From contig NZ_JAKNTA010000002.1 in NCBI RefSeq assembly GCF_022288725.1, positions 306,518-370,517 of the forward strand: DNA of 64,000 nt. The letters are read 5' to 3'. The translations under genes were made by a program, and so were the position numbers. The notes under the pieces were generated by a model. The model saw nothing but the letters and a program-made list of their open reading frames with translations. It did no database searches and was not told the origin of the DNA. Shown here piece by piece: positions 17,652-32,423 of this stretch; the stretch's first letter is position 1, and the number at the start of each line of letters is the position of its first letter. This DNA is from Kitasatospora sp. A2-31. Lineage in GTDB: Bacteria; Actinomycetota; Actinomycetes; Streptomycetales; Streptomycetaceae.

Positions 17652-20600
17652 CACCCGGAGGCGGTGTAGACGACGGCCCGGGTGCCCGGGTCGCCCCAGG
17701 CCAGTTCCCGCAGCAGCGCCAGCGTGCCGGCCTGCGGGTCGATCAGGCGCACGCCGCGGCGGGCGTAGTCCCGGGCGAGCTCGGGGGAGACCATCCCGCC
17801 GTGCCGGCCGGTCGGCGCCCAGGGGCCCCAGTGCACGGTCAGTGCCCGGTGGCCCGTGCGCTCCGCCCAGCGGGTGCCGGTCTGTTCGAGCGCGTCGTTG
17901 GCGGCCGCGTAGTCGCTCTGGCCCCGGTTGCCGAGGGCGGCGGCGACGCTGCCGAAGAGCACGGTGAAGCGGGGTGCGGACGGCAGCTCGTCCAGGGCGT
18001 CGAGCAGTGCGGCGGCGCCGTCCGCCTTGGTGGCGAAGACCCGCTGGAAGGAGGCGAGGTCCTTGTCGGCGAAGACCCGGTCCTCGATCACGCCAGCCGC
18101 GTAGACGACGCCGTCCAGTCGGCCGTACTCGGCGTGGATCTCCTTGACGGCCTGGCGCAGCGCGGCCGGGTCGGCGGCGTCGGCGGTCCGGTAGCGGGCG
18201 GTGGAGCCCAGGTCCGCCAGTTCCCCGAGCGTGGCGGTGACCTCGCGGCCGGCCAGCACACGGGAGACGGCGGCGTCGATCTGCGCCAGCGGGACGCCCC
18301 GGCGGGCGAGGACGCCGCGCAGGTCGGCCCGGTCGCGGGCGCCGGCGGTCGCCGGATCCTCCGGACCGTCGGGCGCGGCCGTGCGGCCCAGCAGCTCCAG
18401 CCGGCAGCGGGAGGCGCCGGCGAGAGCGGCGGCGAACCGTGCGGTGATACCACGGGCCCCGCCGACGAGCAGCACCACGGCGTCCCGGTCCAGGCCCAGG
18501 GCGGCGGCCTCCGCCGCGCCGTCGCCGGCCGGCCCCGCCCCCCTGCCGGCCACCGCGCCCAGGCCCGTCTCCACCAGCGTGATACCGCGGCGTCCGGCCG
18601 GACCGCGCAGCACCACCGGTTCACGGTCCTCGGCCAGCAGTTCTTCGACCAGCGCGTCCGGGGCCTGCCGGGCGTGGTCCTCGATCTCGACGAGGCGCAC
18701 GGCGGTGTGCGGGTATTCGCGGGCCAGGCTGCGGAAGAGACCGCGCAGTCCGTCGCCCCGCCCGTCGGCCTCCCGGTCGGGGTTCCCGGGAAGGGTCGCC
18801 GGTCGGGCGGCCAGCAGCCAGTGCGGGTCTCGGGCCAGGGCGGCTCGCAGCGCGGGCACGGCACCGGGCAGCACCGGGGGGCCGTCCTCACGCAGCGGGT
18901 CCAGGAGCAGGACGCCGTCCACGGGGCCGTCCCCCTCGGACAGTTCGTGCGTCGCCGCGAGGGGCAGCACGCTCGCGCCGAGGGCGGTGAGCCGGGTGGT
19001 GAGGGCGCCGGCGGACCGGTGGGCGTCGTCGCCGAGCAGGGCGAGGCGCTTGCCGGCCAGGGCCCCGGGCGCAGCCGCGGGGGCGGGCAGCGCGGTGGTG
19101 GTGAAGCACAGCCGCAGGGGTTCGTGCCCGGCCGGGGCCGGGGCCGGGGCCGCCGGGTGAGCCGGGTCAGCCGGTGCTGCGGCCGCCGGGTGGGCCGGGT
19201 CGGCCGGTGCTGCGGCCGCCGGGTGGGCCAAGTCGGCGGTGTCGGCCGAGGCGCCCGGTTCGGTACGGGTGGCGAGCCAGCGGGCGATGGCCAGGGCCGT
19301 CCGGGCCCGGGTCAGCTCTTCGACCTGCGCGTCGTCCAGCTCCGGTACCCCACCCGCGCCCCCGCCGAGCCGTCGCGCCAGCAGGCCCACGATCTCCGTC
19401 CGCTTGATCGAATCGATGCTCAGGTCCGCCTCGAGGTCCAGCTCGGGTTCGATCATGTCCGCCGGATAGCCCGTCCGTTCCCCGATCACCTCGACCACCA
19501 CCTGCAGCACCTCCTCCACCCCACCGGCCGCGACCGGCACCGGGGCGGAGGCGGCAGCGGGAGCGGAGGCCAGAGCCGGAGCCGGGGCCGCCGGAGCCGG
19601 GGCGGGCGCGGCCTGGGGAGCGGGAGCGACGCCAGCGGCGGCGACGGGCGGCAGCGGCACGGGTGGCAGCGGCACGGGCGGCGGCGTGGCCGAAGCGTCC
19701 GCCCCGGCCCCGAGGTAGGTCATCAGGACGTCACGCTGGGCCGCGATCAACTCCCGGGTGGTGCGCAGGAAGTCCGCGATCAGCGCGTCGCCGCTCTCGG
19801 TGGCTCCGGTCTGCGGGCCGGGTTGCTGGGCCGTCATCAGGGTCTCCGGTACGCGTCGGGCCGGCGCGAGTGCGCCGGGCAGAAGGTCTCCTGCGGCAGT
19901 GCGCACCAGGTGGCCGTCCACCACCCAGCCGGGGCGGCGCGGGGCCTCGGCCCGCCCGGCCTCCACCGCGTCGCGGCCGCGCAGCAGGCGGCCGGTGCGG
20001 ACCGGCACGCCCGCGACCGCCAGTTCGGCCAGCGCGTCGAGGTATCCGGCCAGTCCGGCCCGCCGCCGTTCGAGGGCGATCGCCCGGTGCGGCCGGTCCC
20101 CCAGGACGTCCGACACCAGGCGGGTGAGCACCGTGCCGGGACCGGCCTCGACGAACACCCGGGCTCCGGCGCCGTACATGGCCTCGATCTGGTCCACGAA
20201 CCGCACGGGCGCGCCGATCTGGGCGGCGAGTTCGGCGCGGACTGCCGCCGGATCGCCCGGGTAGGGGGCGGCCGTCCGGTTGGACCAGACCGGGAACTCC
20301 GGGGGCCGCACGGCGCGCTCCGCCAGCGCCGCGGCGAAGCGTTCGCCGGCGCCGGCGACCAGCGGGCTGTGGAAGGCGCAGGCGACCGGCAGCCGCCTGA
20401 CGCCGAGTCCCGCCTCGCGCAGCAGCACGCCGGCCGCGGTCACGTCGTCGGTGGGGCCGGAGACGACCGTCTGCTGCGGCGCGTTGTGGTTGGCCACCAC
20501 CACGCGTCCGGCCAGTCCCGCCGCCGTCAGCACCTGCTCGACGGAGCGGGCGTCGGCGGTCACGGCGGCCATCGCCCCGGGATCCGCTCCTTCGCCGACC

Positions 20601-23600
20601 TCGTCCAGGATGCAGCGGGCGCGCTCGGCGCTGAGCGCCGGCAGGTCCTCGGCGGCGAGCGCCCCGGCGGCGCACAGGGCGACCAGTTCGCCGTAGCTGT
20701 GGCCCCCGGCCAGGCCGGGACGTACGCCGGCGAGGGCCAGCAGTTCGTGGGCGGCGAGGCCCGTCATGCCCAGGACCGGCTGGGCGACCCGGGTGTCGGT
20801 CACCGCGGCGCGCTGCCCCTCGCGGGCCTCGGGAGTGAAGGCGGCCGGGGGGTGCAGCCGGTCGGCGTACGCCCCTCCGAGCCGCAGCTGACGCTGCAAC
20901 TGCGGGAAGACGGTGAAGAGTTCGGCGAACATGCCGGGCCTCTGGCTGCCCTGCCCGGGGAAGAGGAACGCGACCTCACCGCCCGGGGCGCCGTCCGGGT
21001 CGGCCAGGTGCAGGCCGGCGCCCGGCGCGTGCTCCCCGGCCGACGCCCGGCCCAGCAGGTCGACCAGCTCCGGGACGCTGCAGGCCACGATCGCGACCTG
21101 CACCGGCCCGTGCCCCGCCTCCGCACGCCGGGACGCGGCCAGTGCCAGGTCGCGCAGCCGCCACGGCGCGCCGTCGGCCCGGGCGAGCCGCAGCAGTTCG
21201 GCCACCCCGCGCAGCGCCTGCGCCCGGTCGCGGCCGCGGAAGGTGAACAGCTCCGCCGGCCACTCCTGCAGGCCGTGGACGGGCGTCGGACCGGCGTGAC
21301 CGCGCAGCACGGTGTGGAAGTTGGTGCCGCCGAAGCCGAACGCGCTGACCCCGGCGACCCGTTCGGCCGGCGGCCGGGCCCACGGTCTGGCCTCGTCGTG
21401 GAACACGAAGGGGCTGTCGTCCTGCCAGGCCGCATGGGGCCGGCGCAGGTGCAGGGTCGGTGGCCTGATGCCGGTGTGCAGCGCCAGCGCCGCCTTGATC
21501 AGGCCGGCCAGGCCGGCCGCGCACTTGGTGTGTCCGATCTGCGACTTGACCGAGCCCAGCACGCAGCTGCCCGGTGCGGCTCCGGCTTCGGTGAACACCG
21601 CCTCCAAGGTGGCCAGTTCGGTGCGGTCGCCGACCACGGTGCCGGTGCCGTGCGCCTCCACCAGGCTCACCTGTTCAGGCCCGATCCCGGCATTGCGGTA
21701 GGCCCGTTCCAGCGCCGCGCGCTGGCCCTCGGGACGCGGGGCCGTCAGTCCGAGCGAACGGCCGTCGCTCGCACTGCCGATGCCCTGGATGACCGCGTAG
21801 ACCCGGTCGCCGTCCCGCTCGGCGTCGGCGAGCCGCTTGAGGATCACGCAGCCCACGCCCTCGCCCAGCGCGATGCCGTCGGCGGACGCGTCGAAGGGGC
21901 GGGAGCGCCCGGTGGGGGAGAGCGCGTGCACCGAGGCGAACAGGAGGTAGTCGTTGATGCCGTTGTGCAGGTCCGCGCCGCCGCACACGGCCAGGTCGGC
22001 GGTCCCGGTGACCAGTTCCCGGCAGGCGACGTCCAGGGCCGCCAGCGAGGAGGCGCACGCCGCGTCCACGGTGAAGTTGCCGCCGCCCAGGTCCAACCGG
22101 TTGGCGATCCGCCCCGAGATGACGTTGGCCAGCATGCCGGGGAAGGAATCCTCGGTCAGGACGGGCAGTTGCTGCGCGATCGGCTCGGGCACGCGGCCAA
22201 GGTAGGCCGGCAGGACCGCGCCGAGCACGCCGGCGTTCGACAGGTCGCTGCCCGCCTCGGCACCGAACACCACACCGGCCCGCGACCGGTCGAAGGGCCG
22301 CCCGCCGTCACCGACCCCGCTGTCGTAGCCCGCGTCGACCAGGGCGCGGCGCGCGGCCTCCAGCGCCAGCAGCTGGACCGGTTCGATGCTGCCCAGCGCG
22401 GACGGCGGAATGCCGTAGGCCAGCGGGTCGAAGGGGATCCGGGGCAGGAAGCCGCCCCACTTGGACGGGGTCGTGCCGCTCCCGCCGTCCGGCGCGTGGT
22501 AGACCGCCGGGTCCCAGCGCTCGACGGGGACCTCGGTGACCGCGTCCACCCCGCCCACCACGTTCGCCCAGAACGCGGGCAGGTCGGGGGCCTGCGGGAA
22601 CATGCCCGACATGCCGATCACCGCGATCTCCAGCGGGGCCGGCCCGGGCGCGGCCGGCTCCTCGCCCGCGAGGCGCTCCAGGGCCGCGGTGGCAGCGGCG
22701 GACAGGAAGGCGGCGGCGCCGGTCGTGACGGCTGCGTGCAGTTCGCCGAGCGTCGTGGTCGCCGAGCGCAGGACGGCGACCTGCCCGGCCATGAACATCC
22801 CGCGGTCGAGTTGTTCGTGCTCGTCGACCGAGACCAGCCCCTCCTGGACGCGGTCGACGCCCTTGCTGGCGACCCGCAGCCGCCCGACGTTCAGTTGCTC
22901 CAGACGCTCCCACACCTCGCGCTCGGGCAGGCCCTCGGCCCGCAGCCGCTCGCGGGTCGCCGTGAACTCCCGGGTGAAGGGGCTGGGCACGCAGCGGGTG
23001 GCGTGGCCCGGTGCGGTCTGCAGCAGTTCCGTCCCCTGCGCGGCCACCACCTGGTGCTGGAACCGCGGTTGGACGGCGCCGAGCGTCACCGCCTCCTGCG
23101 TGAACAGGTAGGCGGTGCCCATCAGCAGCCCCGCCGCGATCCCGCGCTCCGCGAGCGGTGCGGCCATCGCGGCCACCATCGCCGCCGACCGCTCGTCGTG
23201 CACGCCCCCGGCGAACAGCACCTCGACCCGCGGTGGCCCCTCGAACCGCGGTGTCCCGTCGGCCTGCGGCGTCCCCTCGGCCTGCGGTCGGCCCGGGGCC
23301 GGTCGCCGTCCGTCCGCGGCGTCGAGGAAGTCCTCCAGGACCGCCAACTGCGCCTCCCACAGCGGGAAACTGTGCTGGGGACCGACGTGTCCGCCGCACT
23401 CGGAGCCCTCGAAGACGAACCTGCGTGCGCCGTCCTCCAGGAACTGCCGCAGCAGCCCGGGGGAGGGGACGTGCAGGAAGGTTCGGATCCCCGCCTCCTC
23501 CAGCACCCGCGCCTGCGAGGGGCGGCCGCCGGCGATCAGGGCGTGGCCGGGCCGGGCGGCCAGCACCTCGGCCAGCTGGGCGTTGCGCAGCTCCTCCGGA

Positions 23601-24682
23601 GCGAAGCCCAGGATGCCCACCCCCCAAGGGAGTTCACCGACCGCGGCACGGGTGCGGGCGAGCAGGTCACGGGTACCCCCGGCGTCGGTCAGCGCAAGGG
23701 CCAGGAAGGGGAGCGCCCCGGCCTCGGCGACCGCGGCCGCGAAGGCCGGCTGGTCGCTGACCCTGGTCATCGGGCCCTGCGCCACCGGCAGCGCGGTGCC
23801 GAGGGCCCGGCTCAGCGGTGTTCGCCGGCCGAGCAGGGCTGCCGCCGACCCCTCGGGGGCCGCCGACCGGAGCCCCGCCAGCACGCCCTCCCGCACCGCG
23901 CGCACCGCCGCGGCCGCCGTCCGCCACCGGGTGGCGAACCGCTCCGCCAGGAAGCCGTCCTGGCCCACCGGCAACTCGGCCGGTGCACCGGCTGCTTCGC
24001 CTCTTCGGCCCCGTCGCAGCACTCTGCGTCCAGCGACCACGCCGGTCTCCGAGCCGTCCATGCCGCGCACCGCGGCCGCGCTCTCGTCGGAGACCGCGGA
24101 CTCCGCGAGCAGGGCCAGCTGGCTGTCGAGGACCACCCCCGCCGCTCCACCCGCCACGGCGGAGGTGGCGGTGCGCGGCCCGATGCCGCCGCAGGCCCAC
24201 ACCGGTACGTCGATCCCGGGCTCCGCCAGCACCTGCTGCAGCAGGACGAAGGTGCTCAAGTCCCCCACCCGGCCGCCGCTCTCGCAGCCGCGGACGACCA
24301 GTCCGTGGGCCCCGCTGCCCACCGCCGCCAGGGCCGCCGGCAGGTCCGTCACCTCGACCAGCACCCGGTAGCCGTCGGCGAGCCGCCCGACGTCCCAGCC
24401 GGCGGCCCGGGAATCCACCACCACGGTGTCCACGCCGGAGTGCTCGGGGGAGCCCAGGTCGTCCGGCCCGAGCCGGCAGCCGTCACCCACCCGGACCCCG
24501 AACCGGCCGGGGGCCCGCTCGCGCAGCGCGGCGAGTTCCTCCCGCGCCCGCCGGTCGCCGGTCCCCAGGTCCAGCACTCCCAGCGCGCCGGCTCGGCACA
24601 AGGCCTCGGTCAGGCCGGCGTCCGGCTCCTGGAAGGGGGTGATTCCAATGACCAGATCGGCCGAGGGGGCAGTGGGCCTCAT
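17648..24682 (-). CDS. PUFA/glycolipid-type PKS subunit, PfaD-like ER-KS-AT-ACP-KR
   Basis: 2,344 residues. Residues 1 to about 480 resemble PfaD/nitronate monooxygenase-type FMN enoyl reductases (FEGSECGGHVGPQHSF near 427). The KS (about 684-1125) has VIGMSGMFP, DAACASS (Cys near 876), EAHGTGT and KSQIGHT. The AT (about 1240-1550) has FLFPGQGSQ and GHSYGE (Ser near 1329). One ACP has LSIDSIKRTE (Ser near 1758), the form seen in PUFA synthases. The KR (about 2060-2344) has LLVGGARGI and SDYAAAND. Together with the next gene the set supplies condensation, ketoreduction, dehydration and enoyl reduction, i.e. a reduced or partly unsaturated acyl chain. ATG at 24682 follows GGAG by 5 bases; the open frame extends upstream without a better site. 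First gene of the operon. Confidence 0.95.
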   Translation of the reverse strand: MRPTAPSADLVIGITPFQEPDAGLTEALCRAGALGVLDLGTGDRRAREELAALRERAPGRFGVRVGDGCRLGPDDLGSPEHSGVDTVVVDSRAAGWDVGRLADGYRVLVEVTDLPAALAAVGSGAHGLVVRGCESGGRVGDLSTFVLLQQVLAEPGIDVPVWACGGIGPRTATSAVAGGAAGVVLDSQLALLAESAVSDESAAAVRGMDGSETGVVAGRRVLRRGRRGEAAGAPAELPVGQDGFLAERFATRWRTAAAAVRAVREGVLAGLRSAAPEGSAAALLGRRTPLSRALGTALPVAQGPMTRVSDQPAFAAAVAEAGALPFLALALTDAGGTRDLLARTRAAVGELPWGVGILGFAPEELRNAQLAEVLAARPGHALIAGGRPSQARVLEEAGIRTFLHVPSPGLLRQFLEDGARRFVFEGSECGGHVGPQHSFPLWEAQLAVLEDFLDAADGRRPAPGRPQAEGTPQADGTPRFEGPPRVEVLFAGGVHDERSAAMVAAMAAPLAERGIAAGLLMGTAYLFTQEAVTLGAVQPRFQHQVVAAQGTELLQTAPGHATRCVPSPFTREFTATRERLRAEGLPEREVWERLEQLNVGRLRVASKGVDRVQEGLVSVDEHEQLDRGMFMAGQVAVLRSATTTLGELHAAVTTGAAAFLSAAATAALERLAGEEPAAPGPAPLEIAVIGMSGMFPQAPDLPAFWANVVGGVDAVTEVPVERWDPAVYHAPDGGSGTTPSKWGGFLPRIPFDPLAYGIPPSALGSIEPVQLLALEAARRALVDAGYDSGVGDGGRPFDRSRAGVVFGAEAGSDLSNAGVLGAVLPAYLGRVPEPIAQQLPVLTEDSFPGMLANVISGRIANRLDLGGGNFTVDAACASSLAALDVACRELVTGTADLAVCGGADLHNGINDYLLFASVHALSPTGRSRPFDASADGIALGEGVGCVILKRLADAERDGDRVYAVIQGIGSASDGRSLGLTAPRPEGQRAALERAYRNAGIGPEQVSLVEAHGTGTVVGDRTELATLEAVFTEAGAAPGSCVLGSVKSQIGHTKCAAGLAGLIKAALALHTGIRPPTLHLRRPHAAWQDDSPFVFHDEARPWARPPAERVAGVSAFGFGGTNFHTVLRGHAGPTPVHGLQEWPAELFTFRGRDRAQALRGVAELLRLARADGAPWRLRDLALAASRRAEAGHGPVQVAIVACSVPELVDLLGRASAGEHAPGAGLHLADPDGAPGGEVAFLFPGQGSQRPGMFAELFTVFPQLQRQLRLGGAYADRLHPPAAFTPEAREGQRAAVTDTRVAQPVLGMTGLAAHELLALAGVRPGLAGGHSYGELVALCAAGALAAEDLPALSAERARCILDEVGEGADPGAMAAVTADARSVEQVLTAAGLAGRVVVANHNAPQQTVVSGPTDDVTAAGVLLREAGLGVRRLPVACAFHSPLVAGAGERFAAALAERAVRPPEFPVWSNRTAAPYPGDPAAVRAELAAQIGAPVRFVDQIEAMYGAGARVFVEAGPGTVLTRLVSDVLGDRPHRAIALERRRAGLAGYLDALAELAVAGVPVRTGRLLRGRDAVEAGRAEAPRRPGWVVDGHLVRTAAGDLLPGALAPARRVPETLMTAQQPGPQTGATESGDALIADFLRTTRELIAAQRDVLMTYLGAGADASATPPPVPLPPVPLPPVAAAGVAPAPQAAPAPAPAAPAPALASAPAAASAPVPVAAGGVEEVLQVVVEVIGERTGYPADMIEPELDLEADLSIDSIKRTEIVGLLARRLGGGAGGVPELDDAQVEELTRARTALAIARWLATRTEPGASADTADLAHPAAAAPADPAHPAAAAPADPAHPAAPAPAPAGHEPLRLCFTTTALPAPAAAPGALAGKRLALLGDDAHRSAGALTTRLTALGASVLPLAATHELSEGDGPVDGVLLLDPLREDGPPVLPGAVPALRAALARDPHWLLAARPATLPGNPDREADGRGDGLRGLFRSLAREYPHTAVRLVEIEDHARQAPDALVEELLAEDREPVVLRGPAGRRGITLVETGLGAVAGRGAGPAGDGAAEAAALGLDRDAVVLLVGGARGITARFAAALAGASRCRLELLGRTAAPDGPEDPATAGARDRADLRGVLARRGVPLAQIDAAVSRVLAGREVTATLGELADLGSTARYRTADAADPAALRQAVKEIHAEYGRLDGVVYAAGVIEDRVFADKDLASFQRVFATKADGAAALLDALDELPSAPRFTVLFGSVAAALGNRGQSDYAAANDALEQTGTRWAERTGHRALTVHWGPWAPTGRHGGMVSPELARDYARRGVRLIDPQAGTLALLRELAWGDPGTRAVVYTASGW
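19155..19240. repeat. 33-base tandem repeat in the ACP-KR linker
   Basis: Units start at 19155, 19188 and 19221 and encode an 11-residue Ala/Pro motif (AAAAPADPAHP), in frame, forming a flexible spacer between ACP and KR. Confidence 0.8.
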
Positions 24683-25118
24683 GGATTCTCCGTAACAGTC
24701 ACGGTGCAGGGGCCGGCCAATGACATGACAGCGCCCGCTGTCGGGCGCAAAGGCGCGATTTCCTGAATGGGACGTCCGGGCTCGGGGGATGCTACCCACC
24801 GGTAAGGCCTTACAGGTTAAGGCCAAACTGCGTGTACATGTCAAGCAGTCGCCCTACGCGCAACGTCCGACAGGCCGACGTCCTCCGGTTCGCACCGCAG
24901 CCACCTGCGCCGTTCCCCGGAAGCGTCGACGTCGGGGTGCGTCGAGCCGCCGGGGGTTGCGGTCCGCGCCGGTGGCGGCGCCGGCGGCGTTCGACGACCG
25001 CCGCCGCGGCATGCCCGCACTCGTACGGACCCGACCGAGCCCCACTAGGATGAGGCACCGTCGCGAGTGGTCCATCCGCGCACGAAGCGTGCGCACGGCG
25101 TGAGGGAAGAGGTGTGTC
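24683..25118. promoter_or_regulatory. Divergent promoter region between PKS operon and XRE gene, with palindrome
   Basis: 436 bases without a gene. The perfect 10-base palindrome TAAGGCCTTA (24803-24812) is followed by a related half-site GGTTAAGGCC (24815-24824). On the minus strand a TTAACC-like -35 and a TAGCAT-like -10 flank it, so a repressor bound here would block the PKS promoter. The divergent XRE-family protein is an obvious but untested candidate. Confidence 0.5.
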
Positions 25119-25538
25119 GTGCCCGAAGCGGAATCCGGTGCGTCCACGCTCGCAGCGAAGCTGGACCGGTTGTTCGACGTGGTCCGCCGTCCCGACCGGG
25201 AACAGTACAGTCACGAGGAGGTCGCCCGGGCCTGCCGCGAGGCGACCGGGGAGAGCTTCTCCGCCACCTACCTCTGGCAGCTCCGGACCGGCCGTCGGGA
25301 CAACCCGACGAAGCGTCACCTGGAGGCGCTGGCACAGTTCTTCCAGGTGCCGCCCGTGTACTTCTTCGACGACCGGCAGAGCGCCAGGATCGCCGAGGAA
25401 CTGGCACTGCTCGGAGCGCTGCGCAACGCCGGGGTACGGGACGTGGCCCTGCGTGCGGTGACCCTCTCGCCCGAAGGCCTCGGCACGATCAGCGACATGA
25501 TCGAGGCCATCGCCCGCCGCGAGGCCGGCGGCAGGTAG
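25119..25538 (+). CDS. XRE-family DNA-binding regulator
   Basis: 139 residues. The helix-turn-helix runs about 30-70 (YSHEEVARACREATGESFS then ATYLWQLRTGRRDNPTKRHL), followed by LAQFFQVPPVYFF, the standard end of Streptomyces XRE domains. The C-terminal half is a short helical region. GTG start at 25119 with GAGGGAAGAGG upstream. It heads a three-gene set with an ImmA/IrrE-like peptidase and a multi-span membrane protein, and is divergent from the PKS operon, which it may control. XRE/ImmA-type pairs elsewhere act as repressor plus anti-repressor protease. Confidence 0.88.
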   Translation: MPEAESGASTLAAKLDRLFDVVRRPDREQYSHEEVARACREATGESFSATYLWQLRTGRRDNPTKRHLEALAQFFQVPPVYFFDDRQSARIAEELALLGALRNAGVRDVALRAVTLSPEGLGTISDMIEAIARREAGGR

Positions 25539-25620
25539 CGGCCTTCGCGGTGCAGCGGATTCCCTCGGCGTTTCCGCGTCCGTAGGATCGCCTCCCGATC
25601 GAACGCCAGGGGGGCGAAGC

Positions 25621-26169
25621 GTGGGGTATTCGGGTGGGGTTGAGCACGGGCTCTGGCAGCGGTGCAGAGGGGTCGCGGAGTCGATTCCGCTTCCCGAGCC
25701 GTTCGGCATACCGGCGCTGGCCGAGGCGCTCGCCCTGCGGCGCGGCCGCCCCATCGAACTGATGCCGCTCTCCGGTCCGGAGTCCTCCCTGTGCGGGGTG
25801 CTGGTCACCACCGACCGCGCCGACTACATCGGCTACCCCGTCGCCACCACGGCCCTGCACCAGCAGCACATCGTCCTGCACGAGATCGGGCACCTGCTCT
25901 GCGGGCACACCGGCGGCTCCGGGCCGAGCCGCCCGCTGTCACCCGCCCTGACCACCCGTCTGCCGGAGGAGCTGGTGCGCAGGGTGCTCGGCCGGTCCGG
26001 GTACACGGAGCGACAGGAGCAGGAGGCCGAGCTCGTCGCCTCGCTCGCCCTGCACCGCGCCCTGCACCGTCCCCGCTTCCGGGCGGTCGGCCAATTCGCG
26101 GACCAGGTGGGACGGTTGCGGTACGTGTTCGGGCTGCCGTCGCGGCGCGACGCAGCGCGCCGTGGGTGA
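25621..26169 (+). CDS. ImmA/IrrE-like metallopeptidase domain protein
   Basis: 182 residues. The zinc motif VLHEIGHLLCGH (HExxH) is near residue 85, with a downstream acidic stretch (RQEQEAELVASLAL) that should give the third ligand, as in ImmA/IrrE enzymes. These proteases cleave or inactivate partner XRE repressors under stress. GTG start at 25621 follows a GGGGGG box. Its end overlaps the next gene by 8 bases. Acting on the adjacent XRE protein is a reasonable inference. Confidence 0.85.
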   Translation: MGYSGGVEHGLWQRCRGVAESIPLPEPFGIPALAEALALRRGRPIELMPLSGPESSLCGVLVTTDRADYIGYPVATTALHQQHIVLHEIGHLLCGHTGGSGPSRPLSPALTTRLPEELVRRVLGRSGYTERQEQEAELVASLALHRALHRPRFRAVGQFADQVGRLRYVFGLPSRRDAARRG

Positions 26170-27391
26170 CGGGATCGCCGGCGTCGCCGGGTACCTCGCC
26201 GGTGCCGTCGCGCTGCTCGGCACGCTCTTCAAGGTCCTGACGGACCGCGGCCGCCGGTCCGACCCGGCGCTCCACTACGGGTACGCCTGCGGGGCGCTCA
26301 TCGGGGCGGGGATGGCGGCGAGCGCCCCGGCCACGGCGCCGGCGCTGGCCGCCGTACTGCCAGACCCCTGCCATCTCACGCTGGTCGCAGACCAGTTGAA
26401 GGTGGCCGCCTCCGGGGCACTGGCCATGATGGCCTACTCCACCCGGCCGACCGCCACGGCGCGACGCGCCGTGCGTCGGCAGGCCGCCCTCACGGCCGCC
26501 ACCGTGGGGCTGGGCATCGCCGCCTTCGTCGCCGCCTCGCCCGTCCGGGAGGGGGTCGTCGTCACCGTCGGCGGGGCGGGCCGGCCGGTGCTGGCCGCGT
26601 ACGTCGTGCTCTTCGCCGTCCACACCGCGTGGTGTCTGGGGGTCTTCGGGTTCCTGATCGGGCGCTGCGCGCGGTGCCTGCCGGCCGGGGCCCTCCGGCT
26701 GGGTCTGCGCCTGATGGCGCTCAGCGCGCTGGTGGGCCTGCTGTGGACGGCGGACAACCTGCACGACCTGGCCGACATCCTCACCACCGGCCGGGAGAAC
26801 GGTGCGGAGAGCAGGATGTCCGCGGTGGCGGGCGCCGTCTGCCTCGCGCTGGGCTTCGCCGGAGCGACCGCATCGGCCTGGGCCGACTGGGCCGGACGCG
26901 TGCGTGCGTGGCGCGACCACCGCCGGCTCGGTCCGCTCTGGTCGGCGATGCGGGCGGCGCTGCCGGAGATCGAACTGGTCTCGTCGGAGCGGCTGTTCGG
27001 TGGTCTGCCGGGTCGGCGGCGGGGCGACGTGCGGTTCGCGCTGTACCGGCGGATCATCGAGATCCGGGACGGCCAGCTCGCCCTCCGCCCCCATCTGCAC
27101 CCGGCGGTGCCACGCTGGGTGGGGGAGGCCGTCGGCCCCGCCGGGACGGAGGAGCTCGCCGCCGTGGTGGAGGCGGCGGCCATCGCCGCCGGGCTCGAGG
27201 CGGCCCGGGCCGGGCACCGCTTTCCGGTCGGTCCGGGCGAAGGATGCGTGCCGCACCCGGTGCCGGCGGACATTCACGAGGAGGCGGCGTGGCTCGTCAA
27301 GGTGGCTGCCGCGTACACCGGTTCGCCCGCCGTGGCCCACGTCCGCAGCCGGGTACGAGGTGAGCTGGGCCGCGCCGCGGCGCAGCGCTGA
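26162..27391 (+). CDS. MAB_1171c-like multi-span membrane protein
   Basis: 409 residues. The N-terminal about 240 residues hold roughly seven hydrophobic segments; the remainder is cytoplasmic, with WRDHRRLGPLWSAMRAALP and later RRIIEIRDGQLALRP, a pattern of the actinobacterial MAB_1171c/DUF6545 family often found after an XRE regulator and an ImmA/IrrE-type protein. Biochemical function is not established; the transporter label used for the family is unproven. GTG start overlaps the upstream stop. The trio probably senses a membrane or extracellular signal and relays it to the regulator. Confidence 0.75.
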   Translation: MGDGIAGVAGYLAGAVALLGTLFKVLTDRGRRSDPALHYGYACGALIGAGMAASAPATAPALAAVLPDPCHLTLVADQLKVAASGALAMMAYSTRPTATARRAVRRQAALTAATVGLGIAAFVAASPVREGVVVTVGGAGRPVLAAYVVLFAVHTAWCLGVFGFLIGRCARCLPAGALRLGLRLMALSALVGLLWTADNLHDLADILTTGRENGAESRMSAVAGAVCLALGFAGATASAWADWAGRVRAWRDHRRLGPLWSAMRAALPEIELVSSERLFGGLPGRRRGDVRFALYRRIIEIRDGQLALRPHLHPAVPRWVGEAVGPAGTEELAAVVEAAAIAAGLEAARAGHRFPVGPGEGCVPHPVPADIHEEAAWLVKVAAAYTGSPAVAHVRSRVRGELGRAAAQR

Positions 27392-27480
27392 CGCCGTGGA
27401 TACCGCCCCGCCGCCCGGCGTCCAGGGCCGGGTGGCGGGGCGGTGCCGATGGGCCGGCCGGTGGGGACCGGACGGGGCGG

Positions 27481-27645
27481 CGGCGGGCCCGACCAGGGGT
27501 GGGCCAGGTCCGGGGGTGGGCCCGATCAGGCGTGGGCCAGGTCCGGGGGTGGGCCCGATCAGGCGTGGGCCAGGTCCGGGGGTGGGCCCGATCAGGCGTG
27601 GGCCAGGTCCGGGGGTGGGCCCGATCAGGCGTGGGCCAGGTCCGG
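27481..27645. repeat. 33-base tandem repeat carrying copies of a gene 3' end and stop codon
   Basis: Units with GGGCC cores at 27501, 27534, 27567, 27600 and 27633 repeat exactly every 33 bases, with a degenerate first unit near 27487. On the minus strand each unit reads the last codons of the TPR gene (PDLAHA) and its TGA, so the coding end has been multiplied downstream. Each unit can form a short GGCCC/GGGCC hairpin. The array fills the space between two convergent genes and might act as a repeated terminator. Confidence 0.9.
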
Positions 27646-29850
27646 CATCAGCTCGTACACCTGCTCGGCCGACCCCGGATCGGCCTTCAGACAGGCGAGC
27701 AGCTCCTCCTTGGCGGTGTCCGCCCGGTCCAGCCCGATCAGGCAACGGGCCCGCTGCAGACGGGCGTCCACGTCCTCGGTCGAGCCGGGCATCTCGTCGA
27801 GCAGCCGGAGCGCCTCACCGTAGCGCCCGGCGTCGTGGTGGACCACGGCCAGGTTGAACCGCATGCCGGGATCGCCCGAGAGCTCGACCGCGTGGGCCAG
27901 ATCGGTGCTCGCGCCGTCCAGGTCGCCCTGCCGGTAACGGAGTTCACCGCGCATGGCCCATGCCTGGGGGTACTCGGGATCGGCGGCGAGGGCGGCCTCC
28001 CAGGCTTCCGCCGCCGCGGCCGTGTCGCCGTCGGCCGCCAATAACTGACCCTTGAGACAGAGGAGCTGCGGGCTGTCCGGAGTGGCCGCGAGGCCGGCCC
28101 GGACCTCGCTCCAGGCAAGCCGGTGCTCCCCCGACTCGACGAGCAGGGCCGCCCGGTTGAGTCGGGCGTCGGCGAACTGCGGGTCGAGCTGGAGGACGTA
28201 GCCGAAGTCCGCCACCGCAGCCTCGGTGTCGCCGAGCTCGGCCAGGACGTCGGCCCGGTTGAAGTAGGCCTCGGGGAACGGCGGCGAGAGCCGGATGGCC
28301 CGGTCGTAGTCGGCCAGCGCCTGCTCCGGACGGCCCAGATCGCGCCAGAGCATGCCCCGGTCGAAGTAGTACTCGGCGTAGTTGGGGTCGCACTCGATCA
28401 CGGCGGTGTAGTCGGCCACGGCCTCGGTGTGGCGGCCGAGGCCCGCGTACACCTGGGCCCGGTTGTAGCGCAGCACGGACCGGTGCAGCGCGTGCTCGTG
28501 CGGCTCCAGGGTCTCGTCGAGCCGGGCGATGCAGGCGTCCAGCAGCGACAACGCCTCCTCCAGGCGGCCCTGGTGGACCTCGATGAGCGCGAGCCCGTTG
28601 CGGTTGAACACCACGCGGGCCTCCCGCTCCTTCGGCTCGGGATGCCACTTGGCGAAGGCGATCGCCTGGTTCACCCAGCTCCGGGCCAGCTGGTGGTCGC
28701 GCCGGTCGGCGTCGAAGTGCCGGGTGTGGAGCATCGCCGTGGCGTACGCGGCCTGCATGTGGACCTCGGGTGAGCTGCTGAGCGCCCGGGCCTCGTCGTA
28801 CAGCGGAAGTGCCAGCTCGGCGAGGCCGAGCGCGGCGTAGGAGGTGGTCATCTTGGTGGTGAAGGCCCACCAGTGGGTCGGGTTGCTCTCGTGGGTGACC
28901 AGCCGCCGGCCGCGCTGGCCGAGGTCGAGGACGGCGTGGTAGTAGCCGAGGTCCATGCAGTGGTCGAGCGCGTGACGCAGGGTGTCGGCCCCGGTGCCGG
29001 ACGGGTCGCTGCCGTGTTCCGCGTGCCAGGCGATGGCGCCGAGCCGGAGGGAGGATTCGCCGGTCGTCTCCAGCTCCGCGCGCCGCAGGTCGTGCAGCCG
29101 GGCGCGTTCGGCGGCGGGCAGAGCGAGGTACGCGGCGAGCTCGTGCGGGTCGTCGCCGACGCCGTCGCCGCCGATGTAGCGGCGGCCGAGCGCGGCGTCC
29201 GCCGGTGCCGGGGAGCTGCCCGCCGCCGGCCGGCCCCGGTCGGACCGGCTCCCGTGGTCCGGCGGCGCGACCACCTCGCACCAGGTGGCGAGGGCGGTCG
29301 GAAGGTCCTCGCCCCCGATGCCGGCCGGGCGCTCCGGCGGTTCGCTGCCGGTGGTGACGACCACGGTGAGCAGCGCGGGATCGACGCGGCGCAGCAGGAC
29401 GGCGAGGAACTCGGCGTCGGTGGGGTCGGCCCGGTGCGCGTCGTCGATGATCACTGAGTGCGGTCCGGGCCCGAGCGAGCCCAGGTACGTCTCCAGGAAC
29501 TCGACCAGGCCGTGGGCGATCCGCAGGGTGCGCAGCGCGGAGTAGAAGCGGGTGCGCTCCTTGGGCACCGCGAGGGATGTCAGGGTCTCGCGGGTGGCGG
29601 GCACGAGGTCCCGCAGTTCCGGCGTGGTGGAGAGGATCTCGATGTCGTGGCCGGTGACCGCCTCGGGGCAGCGCGCGAGCGCGTCCGGGACGATCGCCCG
29701 CAGGATCGAGCCGACGGCGGTGTAGGGCCCGCGCAGCCGGCGGTCGGCGTTCACCGCGGCGAGCACGGGCGGCAGGTCGAGCCGCTCGCGGACGTCGACG
29801 CGGGCGGCGCGCCCGGCGGCGCGGACCCAGTGGTGGCGGTGTTCGGCCAT
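27625..29850 (-). CDS. TPR-repeat protein with degenerate ATPase-like N-terminus
   Basis: 741 residues. The first about 200 resemble the N-terminal part of a STAND-type regulator: RLRGPYTAVGSILR sits where domain entry is expected and SVIIDDAHRADPTDAEFL looks like a Walker B strand, but no P-loop (GxxxxGKT) was found, so nucleotide hydrolysis is doubtful. From about 330 on there are many tetratricopeptide repeats (for example YNRAQVYAGLGRHTEAVADY and YFDRGMLWRDLGRPEQALAD). No DNA-binding domain is seen. Codon 603 is TTA (28042-28044), rare in such genomes and read by the bldA tRNA in Streptomyces. Downstream of the M50 protease gene, separated by an 8-base repeat. Possible roles: peptide receptor, scaffold or leader-binding partner. 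Confidence 0.75.
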   Translation of the reverse strand: MAEHRHHWVRAAGRAARVDVRERLDLPPVLAAVNADRRLRGPYTAVGSILRAIVPDALARCPEAVTGHDIEILSTTPELRDLVPATRETLTSLAVPKERTRFYSALRTLRIAHGLVEFLETYLGSLGPGPHSVIIDDAHRADPTDAEFLAVLLRRVDPALLTVVVTTGSEPPERPAGIGGEDLPTALATWCEVVAPPDHGSRSDRGRPAAGSSPAPADAALGRRYIGGDGVGDDPHELAAYLALPAAERARLHDLRRAELETTGESSLRLGAIAWHAEHGSDPSGTGADTLRHALDHCMDLGYYHAVLDLGQRGRRLVTHESNPTHWWAFTTKMTTSYAALGLAELALPLYDEARALSSSPEVHMQAAYATAMLHTRHFDADRRDHQLARSWVNQAIAFAKWHPEPKEREARVVFNRNGLALIEVHQGRLEEALSLLDACIARLDETLEPHEHALHRSVLRYNRAQVYAGLGRHTEAVADYTAVIECDPNYAEYYFDRGMLWRDLGRPEQALADYDRAIRLSPPFPEAYFNRADVLAELGDTEAAVADFGYVLQLDPQFADARLNRAALLVESGEHRLAWSEVRAGLAATPDSPQLLCLKGQLLAADGDTAAAAEAWEAALAADPEYPQAWAMRGELRYRQGDLDGASTDLAHAVELSGDPGMRFNLAVVHHDAGRYGEALRLLDEMPGSTEDVDARLQRARCLIGLDRADTAKEELLACLKADPGSAEQVYELMPDLAHA

Positions 29851-29872
29851 GACACAGCTGCCTTTCGTACAG

Positions 29873-29946
29873 TGGCGCAGGGACGCAGGGACGCAGGGAC
29901 GCAGGGACGCAGGGACGCAGGAACGCAGGAACGCAGGAACGCATGG
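29873..29946. repeat. 8-base tandem repeat between protease and TPR genes
   Basis: About nine copies of GGACGCAG, changing to GAACGCAG in the last units, lie between the M50 gene stop (29981) and the TPR start (29850). Repeats of this kind can change copy number by slippage; here that would alter spacing in the 5' leader of the TPR gene. Confidence 0.9.
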
Positions 29947-29980
29947 GTGTTGGGGACGGGCGGGCTCGCGGGCGCGGGGC

Positions 29981-31186
29981 TCAGACCGACCGGGTGGAGC
30001 GCCGCTCGCGGGCGGCGAGGACGACGACGGCCGCGGTCTGCGCGAGACTGAGCACCATGAGGGCGAGCGAGTCGAGGCGGCCGGCCAGGGAGGCCTGGCC
30101 GGTCAGGCGCAGCCACATGTCGTGCAACATGCGGTACGCCGTCGGGACGACGACCCCGGCGAACATCGTGAGGGTGAACGCGTAGCCCACCACCATCAGC
30201 CAGGCGTACCAGCGCGCCACCCGCCGGTCCACCGGGTGGTGGGCGGAGAGGTCCAGCGGCGGCCTCCCGGTGATCCGCCGAACGGTGTTGCGCAGCACGT
30301 CGGTCGCGGCGGCATGGAGGTCCACGCAGCCCAGGACCGTACCGAGCAGGACGTAGACGTCGGTCCGCAGGTAGAAGAACCCCTGCCAGGCGAGGCGCAG
30401 CGCCGTGGCGTAGGCCATCGCCAGACAGAGCGACGCCGCCACTGCGTTGGCGTCGCGGGTCGCGTCGGCGACCAGGGTGAGCACGGCGATCACCAGGGCG
30501 TCGGCCAGCATGCCGGCCAGGATGGGCAGGTAGCGCTTCCGGCGCGGCACGCCGACCAGCCCGTCGAGGGAGGTCTCCAGCACCAGGTAGACGAGGCGGC
30601 GGCCGATGGAGAGACGCGAGCGCAGGCCGAGCCGACGGCCGGCCAGGGCGTGGAAGGCCTCGTGCAGGGCGAGCAGCGGCAGCTGACCGACGAACAGCAT
30701 CAGCACGACGAGGGTGTAGGACGAGCTGAAGAACAGGTTGTCGACGCGCGGTACCAGCTCCGGCACCCGGACCATCTCGGCCACGGCGAGGGCTACGACG
30801 AGGGCGTAGCCCACCAGCGCCGGTGGGCTGAACACCAGGCGGCCCAGACGCTGCCAGCGCACCGGCGCGGCCGGCTTGGGGGCTGCGTCGTCGCCGCCGG
30901 GGCGGACGAGGTCGAGATCGACGAGCGTCTCGACCAGGTCGGCGATGTCGACGCTCTCGCCGTGGGCGGTCCGGTGATGCTCGGCGGCCTCGCGGGGCGT
31001 GAGGCCGTCGGCCAGCATCCTGACCAATTCGGCGCCGTCGGAAGGGAAGACGGCGTAGGTGTCGGTCTCCGGGCTGCCGATGGTGACCTCGTCGGCCTCC
31101 GGCAGGTACACGAGTCGGCGGAGCGGTACCGGCCGGTCCAGATCGAGGCCGGGGACGGTGGAGCCGCTGTCCGTGGAGGAGTGCAC
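29981..31186 (-). CDS. Membrane M50-type metalloprotease with PqqD/RRE-like N-terminal domain
   Basis: 401 residues. Residues about 15-100 (LVYLPEADEVTIGSPETD, then LTPREAAEHH and VETLVDLDLV) look like a PqqD/RiPP-recognition-element winged helix, which binds leader peptides. The rest is a polytopic membrane protein with zinc motif LALHEAFHALAGR (HExxH) and a later LRTDVYVLL segment, similar to YydH-type peptide zinc metalloproteases in which an Asp supplies the third ligand. Start chosen as GTG 31186 after AGGAGGA; the open frame extends further but lacks a site. Directly downstream of the 31-residue peptide gene, its probable substrate. Confidence 0.82.
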   Translation of the reverse strand: MHSSTDSGSTVPGLDLDRPVPLRRLVYLPEADEVTIGSPETDTYAVFPSDGAELVRMLADGLTPREAAEHHRTAHGESVDIADLVETLVDLDLVRPGGDDAAPKPAAPVRWQRLGRLVFSPPALVGYALVVALAVAEMVRVPELVPRVDNLFFSSSYTLVVLMLFVGQLPLLALHEAFHALAGRRLGLRSRLSIGRRLVYLVLETSLDGLVGVPRRKRYLPILAGMLADALVIAVLTLVADATRDANAVAASLCLAMAYATALRLAWQGFFYLRTDVYVLLGTVLGCVDLHAAATDVLRNTVRRITGRPPLDLSAHHPVDRRVARWYAWLMVVGYAFTLTMFAGVVVPTAYRMLHDMWLRLTGQASLAGRLDSLALMVLSLAQTAAVVVLAARERRSTRSV

Positions 31187-31263
31187 GGGTCCTCCTGCGC
31201 GAGGTAGGCGGGGGCGGGGTGGAGCGGTGCGGGCCGGCGTGTGGCCGGCCCGCACCGCGTTCC

Positions 31264-31284
31264 CCCTCTGCCCCGGGGGAGGGG
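31264..31284 (-). terminator. Hairpin between peptide gene and protease gene
   Basis: CCCCTC (31264-31269) pairs with GAGGGG (31279-31284), starting 5 bases after the peptide stop. A partial terminator here would give more peptide than protease transcript, as in many precursor-peptide operons. Confidence 0.55.
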
Positions 31285-31288
31285 TCGG

Positions 31289-31384
31289 TCAGTTCTGCAC
31301 GGCGCAGGACCACGGCAGGTACAGCGCGCGGGCCGCGCTGGTCAGGCGGACCGGGCCGGCCTTGCGGACGACGATCTTCTTCAT
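31289..31384 (-). CDS. 31-residue putative precursor peptide
   Basis: Short gene with ATG at 31384 and a textbook ribosome-binding site (AAGGAGGT, 8 bases before ATG). The product begins MKKIVVRKAG, is basic over its first 20 residues and ends in a hydrophobic segment LYLPWSCAVQN with a single Cys and Trp. There is no typical signal peptide. It is the first gene of a minus-strand set with an RRE-like M50 protease and a TPR protein, and a hairpin follows at once. This is the layout of a leader/core precursor or a pheromone precursor. No lanthionine, YcaO, radical-SAM or macrocyclase enzyme is nearby, so the modification, if any, is unknown. Confidence 0.72.
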   Translation of the reverse strand: MKKIVVRKAGPVRLTSAARALYLPWSCAVQN

Positions 31385-31426
31385 CGCACACACCTCCTTC
31401 GGTGACTGGTCTTCAACAGCGCCATC

Positions 31427-31467
31427 AGCTGGTGTGAATGGACAGCTGACATCAATTCACGCCAGCT
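31427..31467. promoter_or_regulatory. Long inverted repeat upstream of the peptide gene
   Basis: Arms 31427-31439 (AGCTGGTGTGAAT) and 31455-31467 match in 12 of 13 positions around a 15-base loop, 43-83 bases upstream of the peptide start. As RNA the one mismatch becomes G-U. It is either an operator in the promoter or a leader hairpin. Confidence 0.6.
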
Positions 31468-31622
31468 TCGGCGATGAGCCAAGGGTGATGAGGATGTGGT
31501 GATCGTGTCAATGGATCGGAATTCCCCAACCCATGCTGAACCTTGGTGCCCGTTCGGAACGTCCAGGTCGACGGCGGTGGGGAGGCCGTGGCGGCCCCGG
31601 GGCAACTAATAAACTGAAAGAA

Positions 31623-31650
31623 TTGGCTTTGCGGGTGCTATCCATATGAG
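31623..31650 (+). promoter_or_regulatory. Possible promoter for the DUF3105 gene
   Basis: TTGGCT (31623-31628), 16-base spacer, TATGAG (31645-31650), in an A+T-rich stretch about 140 bases before the gene. The region 31468-31622 shows no gene. Confidence 0.35.
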
Positions 31651-31790
31651 CTGATCACATAGGACGCGGAGAGTGGGAATGTCGGGTCGCGGCCCCGGCG
31701 GCCGGCAGGCGCCCCGGGCGGCCCACGCGCTCGACGGCGATACTGGAGCTGAACGCCGTGCGCCCGCGCGGCGGCGAGAGGGGCCCGGCC

Positions 31791-32423
31791 ATGGCTGCTG
31801 CTCCCAGGAAACGGTCCGACGACCGGCGTGCCAGAACCGAGGCGATGCACCGGGAGGACCAGCGGCGCAAGCGCCGCCGGAAGATCGTGTACTCGGCGGT
31901 GGCCGGTCTCATCGTGGCCGGCGTGCTCGCGGGCGGCATCTGGGCCGTCACCACCGCCGACGACGGCGCGCCCACGAGCAAGGCCCCGATCGCGGGCGTG
32001 CAGACCTTCGGCAAGCTCGGGCGTACGCACGTGCAGACGCCGGTGGCCTACCCGCAGACCCCGCCCGTCGGCGGCGACCACAGTCCGGTCTGGCTCGACT
32101 GCAACGGAGCCGTCTACACCCGGCCCGTCCCCGACGAGAACGCCGTCCACTCCCTGGAGCACGGCGCGGTCTGGATCACCTACAACGACCAGGCGTCCCC
32201 GGCCGACGTCGCCGCACTCGCGGCCAAGGTCCAGGGCAAGCCGTACACCTTCATGAGCCCCTACCCGGCGGAGCAGGGGAAGATCACCCTCACCGCCTGG
32301 GGCAACCAGCTGGTGGTGGACAGCCCGACCGACCCCCGCGTGGACGCCTTCCTCGCCCAGTACGTGCAGGGGCCGCAGACGCCGGAGCCCGGCGCTCCGT
32401 GCACGGACGGGCTCATGCCGTAG
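31791..32423 (+). CDS. DUF3105 membrane-anchored protein
   Basis: 210 residues. A basic N-terminus (REDQRRKRRRKIVY) precedes one transmembrane segment (AVAGLIVAGVLAGGIWAVTT, about 35-55), placing the rest outside. The outer domain has GGDHSPVWLDCNG, ENAVHSLEHGAVWITY and TAWGNQLVVD, typical of DUF3105, an uncharacterised actinobacterial family. The conserved His/Cys residues could bind a metal, unproven. ATG at 31791 preferred over GTG 31758 because GAGAGGGG sits at good spacing. Divergent from the peptide locus. Confidence 0.88.
   Translation: MAAAPRKRSDDRRARTEAMHREDQRRKRRRKIVYSAVAGLIVAGVLAGGIWAVTTADDGAPTSKAPIAGVQTFGKLGRTHVQTPVAYPQTPPVGGDHSPVWLDCNGAVYTRPVPDENAVHSLEHGAVWITYNDQASPADVAALAAKVQGKPYTFMSPYPAEQGKITLTAWGNQLVVDSPTDPRVDAFLAQYVQGPQTPEPGAPCTDGLMP

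Follow-up and report, generated by a model that had tools for sequence, protein, structure and literature searches.

Membrane proteases of the M50 family and short peptides encoded beside them recur in several described bacterial pathways. EpeP and the pearlin proteases TglG and TmoG are membrane M50 enzymes that mature a short precursor encoded in the same gene cluster (PMC10885120). Daptide loci of actinobacteria likewise encode a HExxH intramembrane metalloprotease (NF041824), lasso peptide B1 proteins such as TbiB1 and 6jx3 carry an RRE that presents the leader to the B2 protease, and SHP/Rgg-Eep and Phr/Rap signalling bring together a short peptide, an M50 protease (Eep) and a TPR protein. 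Radical SAM or PEARL enzymes belong to the epipeptide and pearlin pathways. An RRE and a fixed, non-membrane leader are features of RiPPs and not of SHPs.

How does the locus described here compare? In a stretch of 64,000 nucleotides of Kitasatospora sp. A2-31 DNA (the window), the sequence and its open reading frames show, in this order on the minus strand, a 31-codon peptide gene, a hairpin, a gene for a 401-residue protease and a gene for a 741-residue TPR protein. Like the EpeP and TglG/TmoG pathways, this cassette pairs a short precursor with a membrane M50 protease, but no radical SAM or PEARL enzyme was found, and the protease has its own RRE and a TPR partner. We consider it probable that the cassette is a minimal, as yet unclassified RiPP-type peptide system, in which the leader is bound by the RRE and the core is released at the membrane by the M50 domain.

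A three-gene cassette and its distribution

The initial annotation, made from the DNA letters, had described a short gene with a consensus ribosome-binding site, a hairpin directly behind it, a protease combining a PqqD/RRE-like domain with HExxH, and a large TPR protein, and each of these elements holds on closer analysis (Table 1). The peptide genes of relatives are preceded by equivalent GGAGG-type ribosome-binding sites.

Table 1. Features of the cassette, in window coordinates
Feature	Position	Strand	Evidence
Precursor peptide gene, 31 aa, MKKIVVRKAGPVRLTSAARALYLPWSCAVQN	31289..31384	-	Genome-wide profile hits, dN/dS
Shine-Dalgarno AAGGAGGTG of the peptide gene, 6 nt before ATG	31391..31399	-	Sequence
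Conserved leader KKIVVRKAGPVRLT	31340..31381	-	Invariant residues, dN/dS
Variable core SAARALYLPWSCAVQN, holding Tyr and Cys; leader/core boundary approximate	31292..31339	-	Core comparison
Perfect 15-bp stem GCGGTGCGGGCCGGC / GCCGGCCCGCACCGC with 5-nt loop, in the peptide-protease gap	31224..31258	-	Fold, shuffles
Membrane metalloprotease of site-2 type with RRE and M50 domains, 401 aa; AGGAGG precedes its GTG start	29981..31186	-	Sequence, model
RRE (PqqD-like) domain, residues 18-98	30893..31135	-	AlphaFold2 model, fold matches
Zinc site HEAFH (residues 175-179), with both H and the E invariant	30650..30664	-	Alignment
Asp276, invariant, at the third-zinc-ligand position of M50 proteases	30359..30361	-	Alignment
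741-aa protein: AAA_16-like N-terminal domain lacking Walker A, then TPR superhelix	27625..29850	-	Pfam, model

For the gap between the peptide and protease genes the predicted folding energy is -66.6 kcal/mol (z -5.1 relative to shuffled sequence). In 47 of 83 loci the stem at this place, though different in sequence, exceeds in length those of all 20 shuffles. Since no T-run follows it, the hairpin is probably an mRNA stabiliser or partial attenuator rather than a full terminator; our guess, by analogy with other RiPP operons, is that it may set the ratio of precursor to enzyme. Scans for sigma-70 promoters and intrinsic terminators gave no matches, nor did an Rfam search of window positions 31000-31800. 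The protease-TPR gap contains an 8-bp tandem repeat, CGCAGGGA (8.5 copies, window 29876-29943), and a 33-bp tandem repeat (5.1 copies, 97% matches, window 27478-27645) overlaps the 3' end of the TPR gene.

Is the short frame a gene at all? Queried with the 401-residue protein, 395 Streptomycetaceae genomes gave matches in 100, and the M50 clade proper, at about 39% identity or more, occupies 105 places in 74 genomes, roughly one in five of those sampled. A profile of the peptide, searched over the same 395 genomes regardless of position (E<1e-4), returned 116 hits, 115 of which lie upstream of a clade M50 gene on the same strand. A peptide sharing the leader is found 41-513 nt upstream, on the same strand, of 104 of the 105 clade M50 homologues, a sensitivity that is partly circular because the profile was built from M50-adjacent peptides, whereas the specificity of 115/116 is not; the start of the single homologue lacking it (G132:C62) is 1.25 kb away from the end of its contig. 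The TPR gene directly follows the M50 gene in 82 of 87 clade loci among the 100 neighbourhoods fetched (up to 20 kb each), with a gap mostly below 150 nt and often of -4. The trio proposed by the initial annotation is thus conserved. Its short frame, which that annotation would have abandoned had the frame proved unconserved or its substitutions non-coding, is maintained under purifying selection (below), and together with the linkage in both directions the dN/dS ratios rule out a chance open reading frame.

Beyond Streptomycetaceae, strong matches occur in seven genomes of a 395-genome sample of the class, and the loci fetched from these genomes (L164-L170) all have both the peptide and the TPR protein. 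A search of plasmids gave one long match at 40% identity, the rest being partial, and the plasmid records seen are annotated 'hypothetical protein'. On our reading, some hundred loci of the Streptomycetaceae sampled would code for an unclassified peptide family, one easily overlooked with its precursors of some 25-40 codons, a protease that lacks a Pfam match and such annotations.

A fixed leader, a hypervariable core and the proteins that would handle them

The peptides share the leader pattern KKI.VRK.G.VRLT, in which K3, R7, G10 and T15 do not vary across 35 diverse sequences. Within the close clade of the window dN/dS is 0.08 for the leader and 0.47 for the core, and family-wide it is 0.30 for the leader against 1.14 for cores of equal length (all summed over pairs, which are not independent counts). 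The leader is under purifying selection and the core is hypervariable, in agreement with the basic N-terminal part and variable C-terminal piece that had been suggested from the window alone. At several loci the precursor gene is repeated in tandem, in two to four copies that mostly differ in their cores (for example L050, L052, L056 and L062), an arrangement typical of RiPP loci. The encoded precursor has the conserved leader and variable core of a RiPP. Neither Pfam nor NCBIfam matched the peptides. Because the front half is fixed while the tail is hypervariable around a constant Tyr and Cys (below), the peptides would seem to form a previously undescribed family of processed peptides of ribosomal origin.

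Pfam and NCBIfam likewise found neither an RRE nor an M50 domain in the window protein; among its homologues PqqD was matched in 19 and Peptidase_M50 in 21 of 54. In the AlphaFold2 model (mean pLDDT 92), both folds expected by the initial annotation are present. Residues 18-98 match 6jx3 (Z 10.2, rmsd 2.3 over 79 residues), 5v1u and 5v1v (Z 10.0) and PqqD (Z 8.5), and residues 155-355 match RseP (Z 9.0) and SpoIVFB (Z 8.2). The closest fold matches, 6jx3 and TbiB1 (5v1u/5v1v), are lasso B1 RREs with bound leader; TbiB1 was also the sole hit of the clade sequence profile against the PDB (E 0.85). The transmembrane core holds the HExxH motif and Asp ligand of M50 site-2 proteases: H175, E176, H179 and D276 are the same in all 54 sequences compared, and what is known of the family leads us to expect an active zinc protease on the strength of this invariance, with Asp276 presumably the third zinc ligand. 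When covariation between leader and protease was examined (mutual information with APC, 69 sequences), 7 of the 20 strongest pairs fell in the RRE where 4.4 would be expected, a difference that is not significant (P 0.12). The RRE is present at the level of fold and of the PqqD matches, and leader binding is predicted. In the mechanism that we propose, the short gene would yield a precursor whose fixed N-terminal half is a leader that docks on the RRE of the protease. The S2P-type M50 domain would then cut the precursor, probably near the VRLTSAA region, and so free the short hypervariable core at the membrane or across it. If this is right, it can be tested whether an RRE is able to hand substrates to an intramembrane protease.

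The TPR protein was modelled with a pLDDT of 92. Its residues 280-741 form a TPR superhelix like that of many peptide-binding TPR proteins, a match that is generic, and AAA_16 is a weak match to residues 49-159 (E 0.0023). A Walker A motif is missing from the first 80 residues of all 82 homologues; in this stretch 76 of them show an RGPYT-like motif. We infer from these sequences that the N-terminal domain is a degenerate NTPase domain used for binding, and the whole protein, its NTPase-like head lacking the phosphate-binding loop, may be a peptide-binding scaffold or adaptor.

Could the cassette instead be a pheromone system, in which the M50 protease frees a short signal, as Eep does with streptococcal SHP, to be received inside the cell by the TPR protein in the manner of Rap and other RRNPP proteins? 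The length of the peptide and its place in one operon with an M50 protease and a large TPR protein would suit such a role, the hypervariable tails could be strain-specific pherotypes, and the TPR part resembles RapI, RapH and the pLS20 Rap among many TPR structures (Z 17-18). That resemblance is generic, however, and unlike the HTH-TPR regulators of RRNPP systems the protein has no HTH or other DNA-binding domain detectable by Pfam, nor does a target gene recur beside the cassette. In contrast to SHP/Rgg-Eep and Phr/Rap, moreover, the leader is soluble, basic and fixed and an RRE is present, and a tandem array holding several different cores is less easily reconciled with a pheromone. We regard this explanation as unlikely.

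Comparison with the described classes leads in the same direction as the initial annotation, which could name no class for the locus. Like lasso B1 and B2, the cassette would use an RRE to present a leader to a protease, but the protease is M50 and not C96, and neither the lasso B2 transglutaminase-like protease nor the C cyclase recurs in the 87 loci or appears in the examined stretch of the window. Daptide enzymes are absent nearby, and the daptide metalloprotease model NF041824 does not hit the window protein, although it weakly matches a distant relative (L133, E 0.0023). The LanB-like (PEARL) neighbour of pearlins is not recurrent in the 87 loci. As far as the features tested in these sequences go, the system is not lasso, daptide, pearlin or SHP/Rgg, and the Cys of its cores is not consistently placed for the C-terminal thiolactone of Agr autoinducing peptides, some cores ending in their only Cys. 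Leader strings were not found in open-access literature text; M50 and TPR proteins go unmentioned in the main texts of RRE-Finder, of its 2025 update and of the decRiPPter paper, and we found no published description of the cassette in open-access main texts.

The nearest M50 relatives outside the clade (L119-L137) are RRE-M50 proteins at about 30% identity, most of them beside PaaA-like ThiF enzymes. These clusters resemble the cassette in having a homologous RRE-M50 protein and a short upstream peptide, but have the ThiF enzyme in place of the TPR protein and a different peptide motif, VR.LDK.ET; they contain neither the cassette peptide nor the TPR gene, and the few peptides read show no requirement for Tyr or Cys. 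An example, encoded upstream of the M50 gene in L137, is MEHTTHAETFGDQGTLGNSEAPQQPEFIEVRLLDKIETIQNKQIDT. A carboxypeptidase-like gene lies nearby in nine of these loci. They are possibly another undescribed RiPP family.

Tyrosine, cysteine and flavin enzymes

The initial annotation had taken a WSC-like tail as the mark of the family, a motif that we reject as a family signature, since no more than a few clades have it; what is invariant in the hypervariable core is the presence of Tyr and Cys. Both occur in all 75 distinct cores (73 collected by pattern and two, from L105 and L107, by hand), and in each of six further cores from other families. Tyr is single in 68 and Cys in 39 of the 75, and their order and spacing vary. 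When core residues were dealt at random, with one core per M50 cluster, on average about half of the cores held both and never all of them (P<=5e-5 with 16, 32 or 48 clusters; the test has no power with 4 clusters, at 50% linkage). An intramolecular disulfide is excluded as a general feature, because about half of the cores have a single Cys.

A Cys in every core might also mean that the peptide is closed at the membrane into a cyclic thiolactone, like the staphylococcal autoinducing peptides, Tyr being only a recognition residue, and the window core could indeed yield a five-residue CAVQN ring of AIP size. Cores that end in Cys, such as YGTWPFC and YILTVC, could not close such a ring, and the protease is of the HExxH type, which to our knowledge forms no acyl-enzyme. 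We hold this origin of the conserved Cys to be extremely improbable.

About a third of the loci have a flavin enzyme as fourth gene, drawn from three unrelated families. A PF01613 flavin reductase is present in 24 loci, directly after the TPR gene or, in L018 and L047, just before the peptide gene; an FMN_red-type protein occurs in five (PF03358 confirmed in L085 and L109), and an old-yellow-enzyme protein in four (PF00724 confirmed in L164). The core at one flavin-reductase locus is SAAASAYCCGAS. Loci with flavin enzymes are scattered over the M50 tree, which is mostly well supported. Since unrelated flavin enzymes have taken one another's place, the pathway seems to depend on reduced flavin or on flavin redox chemistry. 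Among the best NCBIfam relatives of the PF01613 proteins are reductase partners of phenol monooxygenases, a likeness that is suggestive with regard to Tyr but lies below curated cut-offs. That the locus lacks a recognised RiPP tailoring enzyme, as first annotated, stands for the window cassette, which has no adjacent flavin enzyme either. The extra flavin enzyme in a third of loci, a putative participant in tailoring, could not be seen from the window alone; if the need for flavin holds, a housekeeping enzyme would have to serve in the window lineage.

From the three flavin-enzyme families we would suppose, more weakly, that a redox modification takes place at Tyr and Cys. A fuller version, a new RiPP class with a redox modification or bond at the obligatory Tyr and Cys, reduced flavin supplied by an operon or housekeeping reductase, and the degenerate-NTPase TPR protein as catalyst or substrate carrier, is a tentative and rather doubtful proposal. 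Should the RiPP reading be right, which chemistry needs Tyr and Cys in an otherwise free core can be put to the test.

Most loci have no tailoring enzyme, which would also suit an unmodified, bacteriocin-like peptide that the M50 protease cuts and exports, with Tyr and Cys serving metal or membrane binding. The M50 protease EpeP is thought to do just this, cutting and exporting EpeX (PMC10885120). Yet flavin enzymes have been captured repeatedly by the operon, and the cores are very short after the likely cut; this alternative appears very unlikely to us.

Beside the cassette, no dedicated transporter or immunity gene recurs in the 87 loci. In L164-L167 a regulator gene, with BTAD and NB-ARC domains in L164, is divergent from the cassette. 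Converging on the window cassette from the plus strand (25119-27391) are an HTH gene, an M78-like gene with HExxH and a gene for a MAB_1171c-type membrane protein (DUF6545). Only 11 of the 87 clade loci, largely those of the nearest relatives, retain this set, which also occurs in L131; for this reason we rejected it as part of the cassette. Further along the window, the minus strand at 17648-24844 encodes a large protein resembling PKSs, in which nitronate monooxygenase, ketosynthase, acyltransferase and KR domains are combined.
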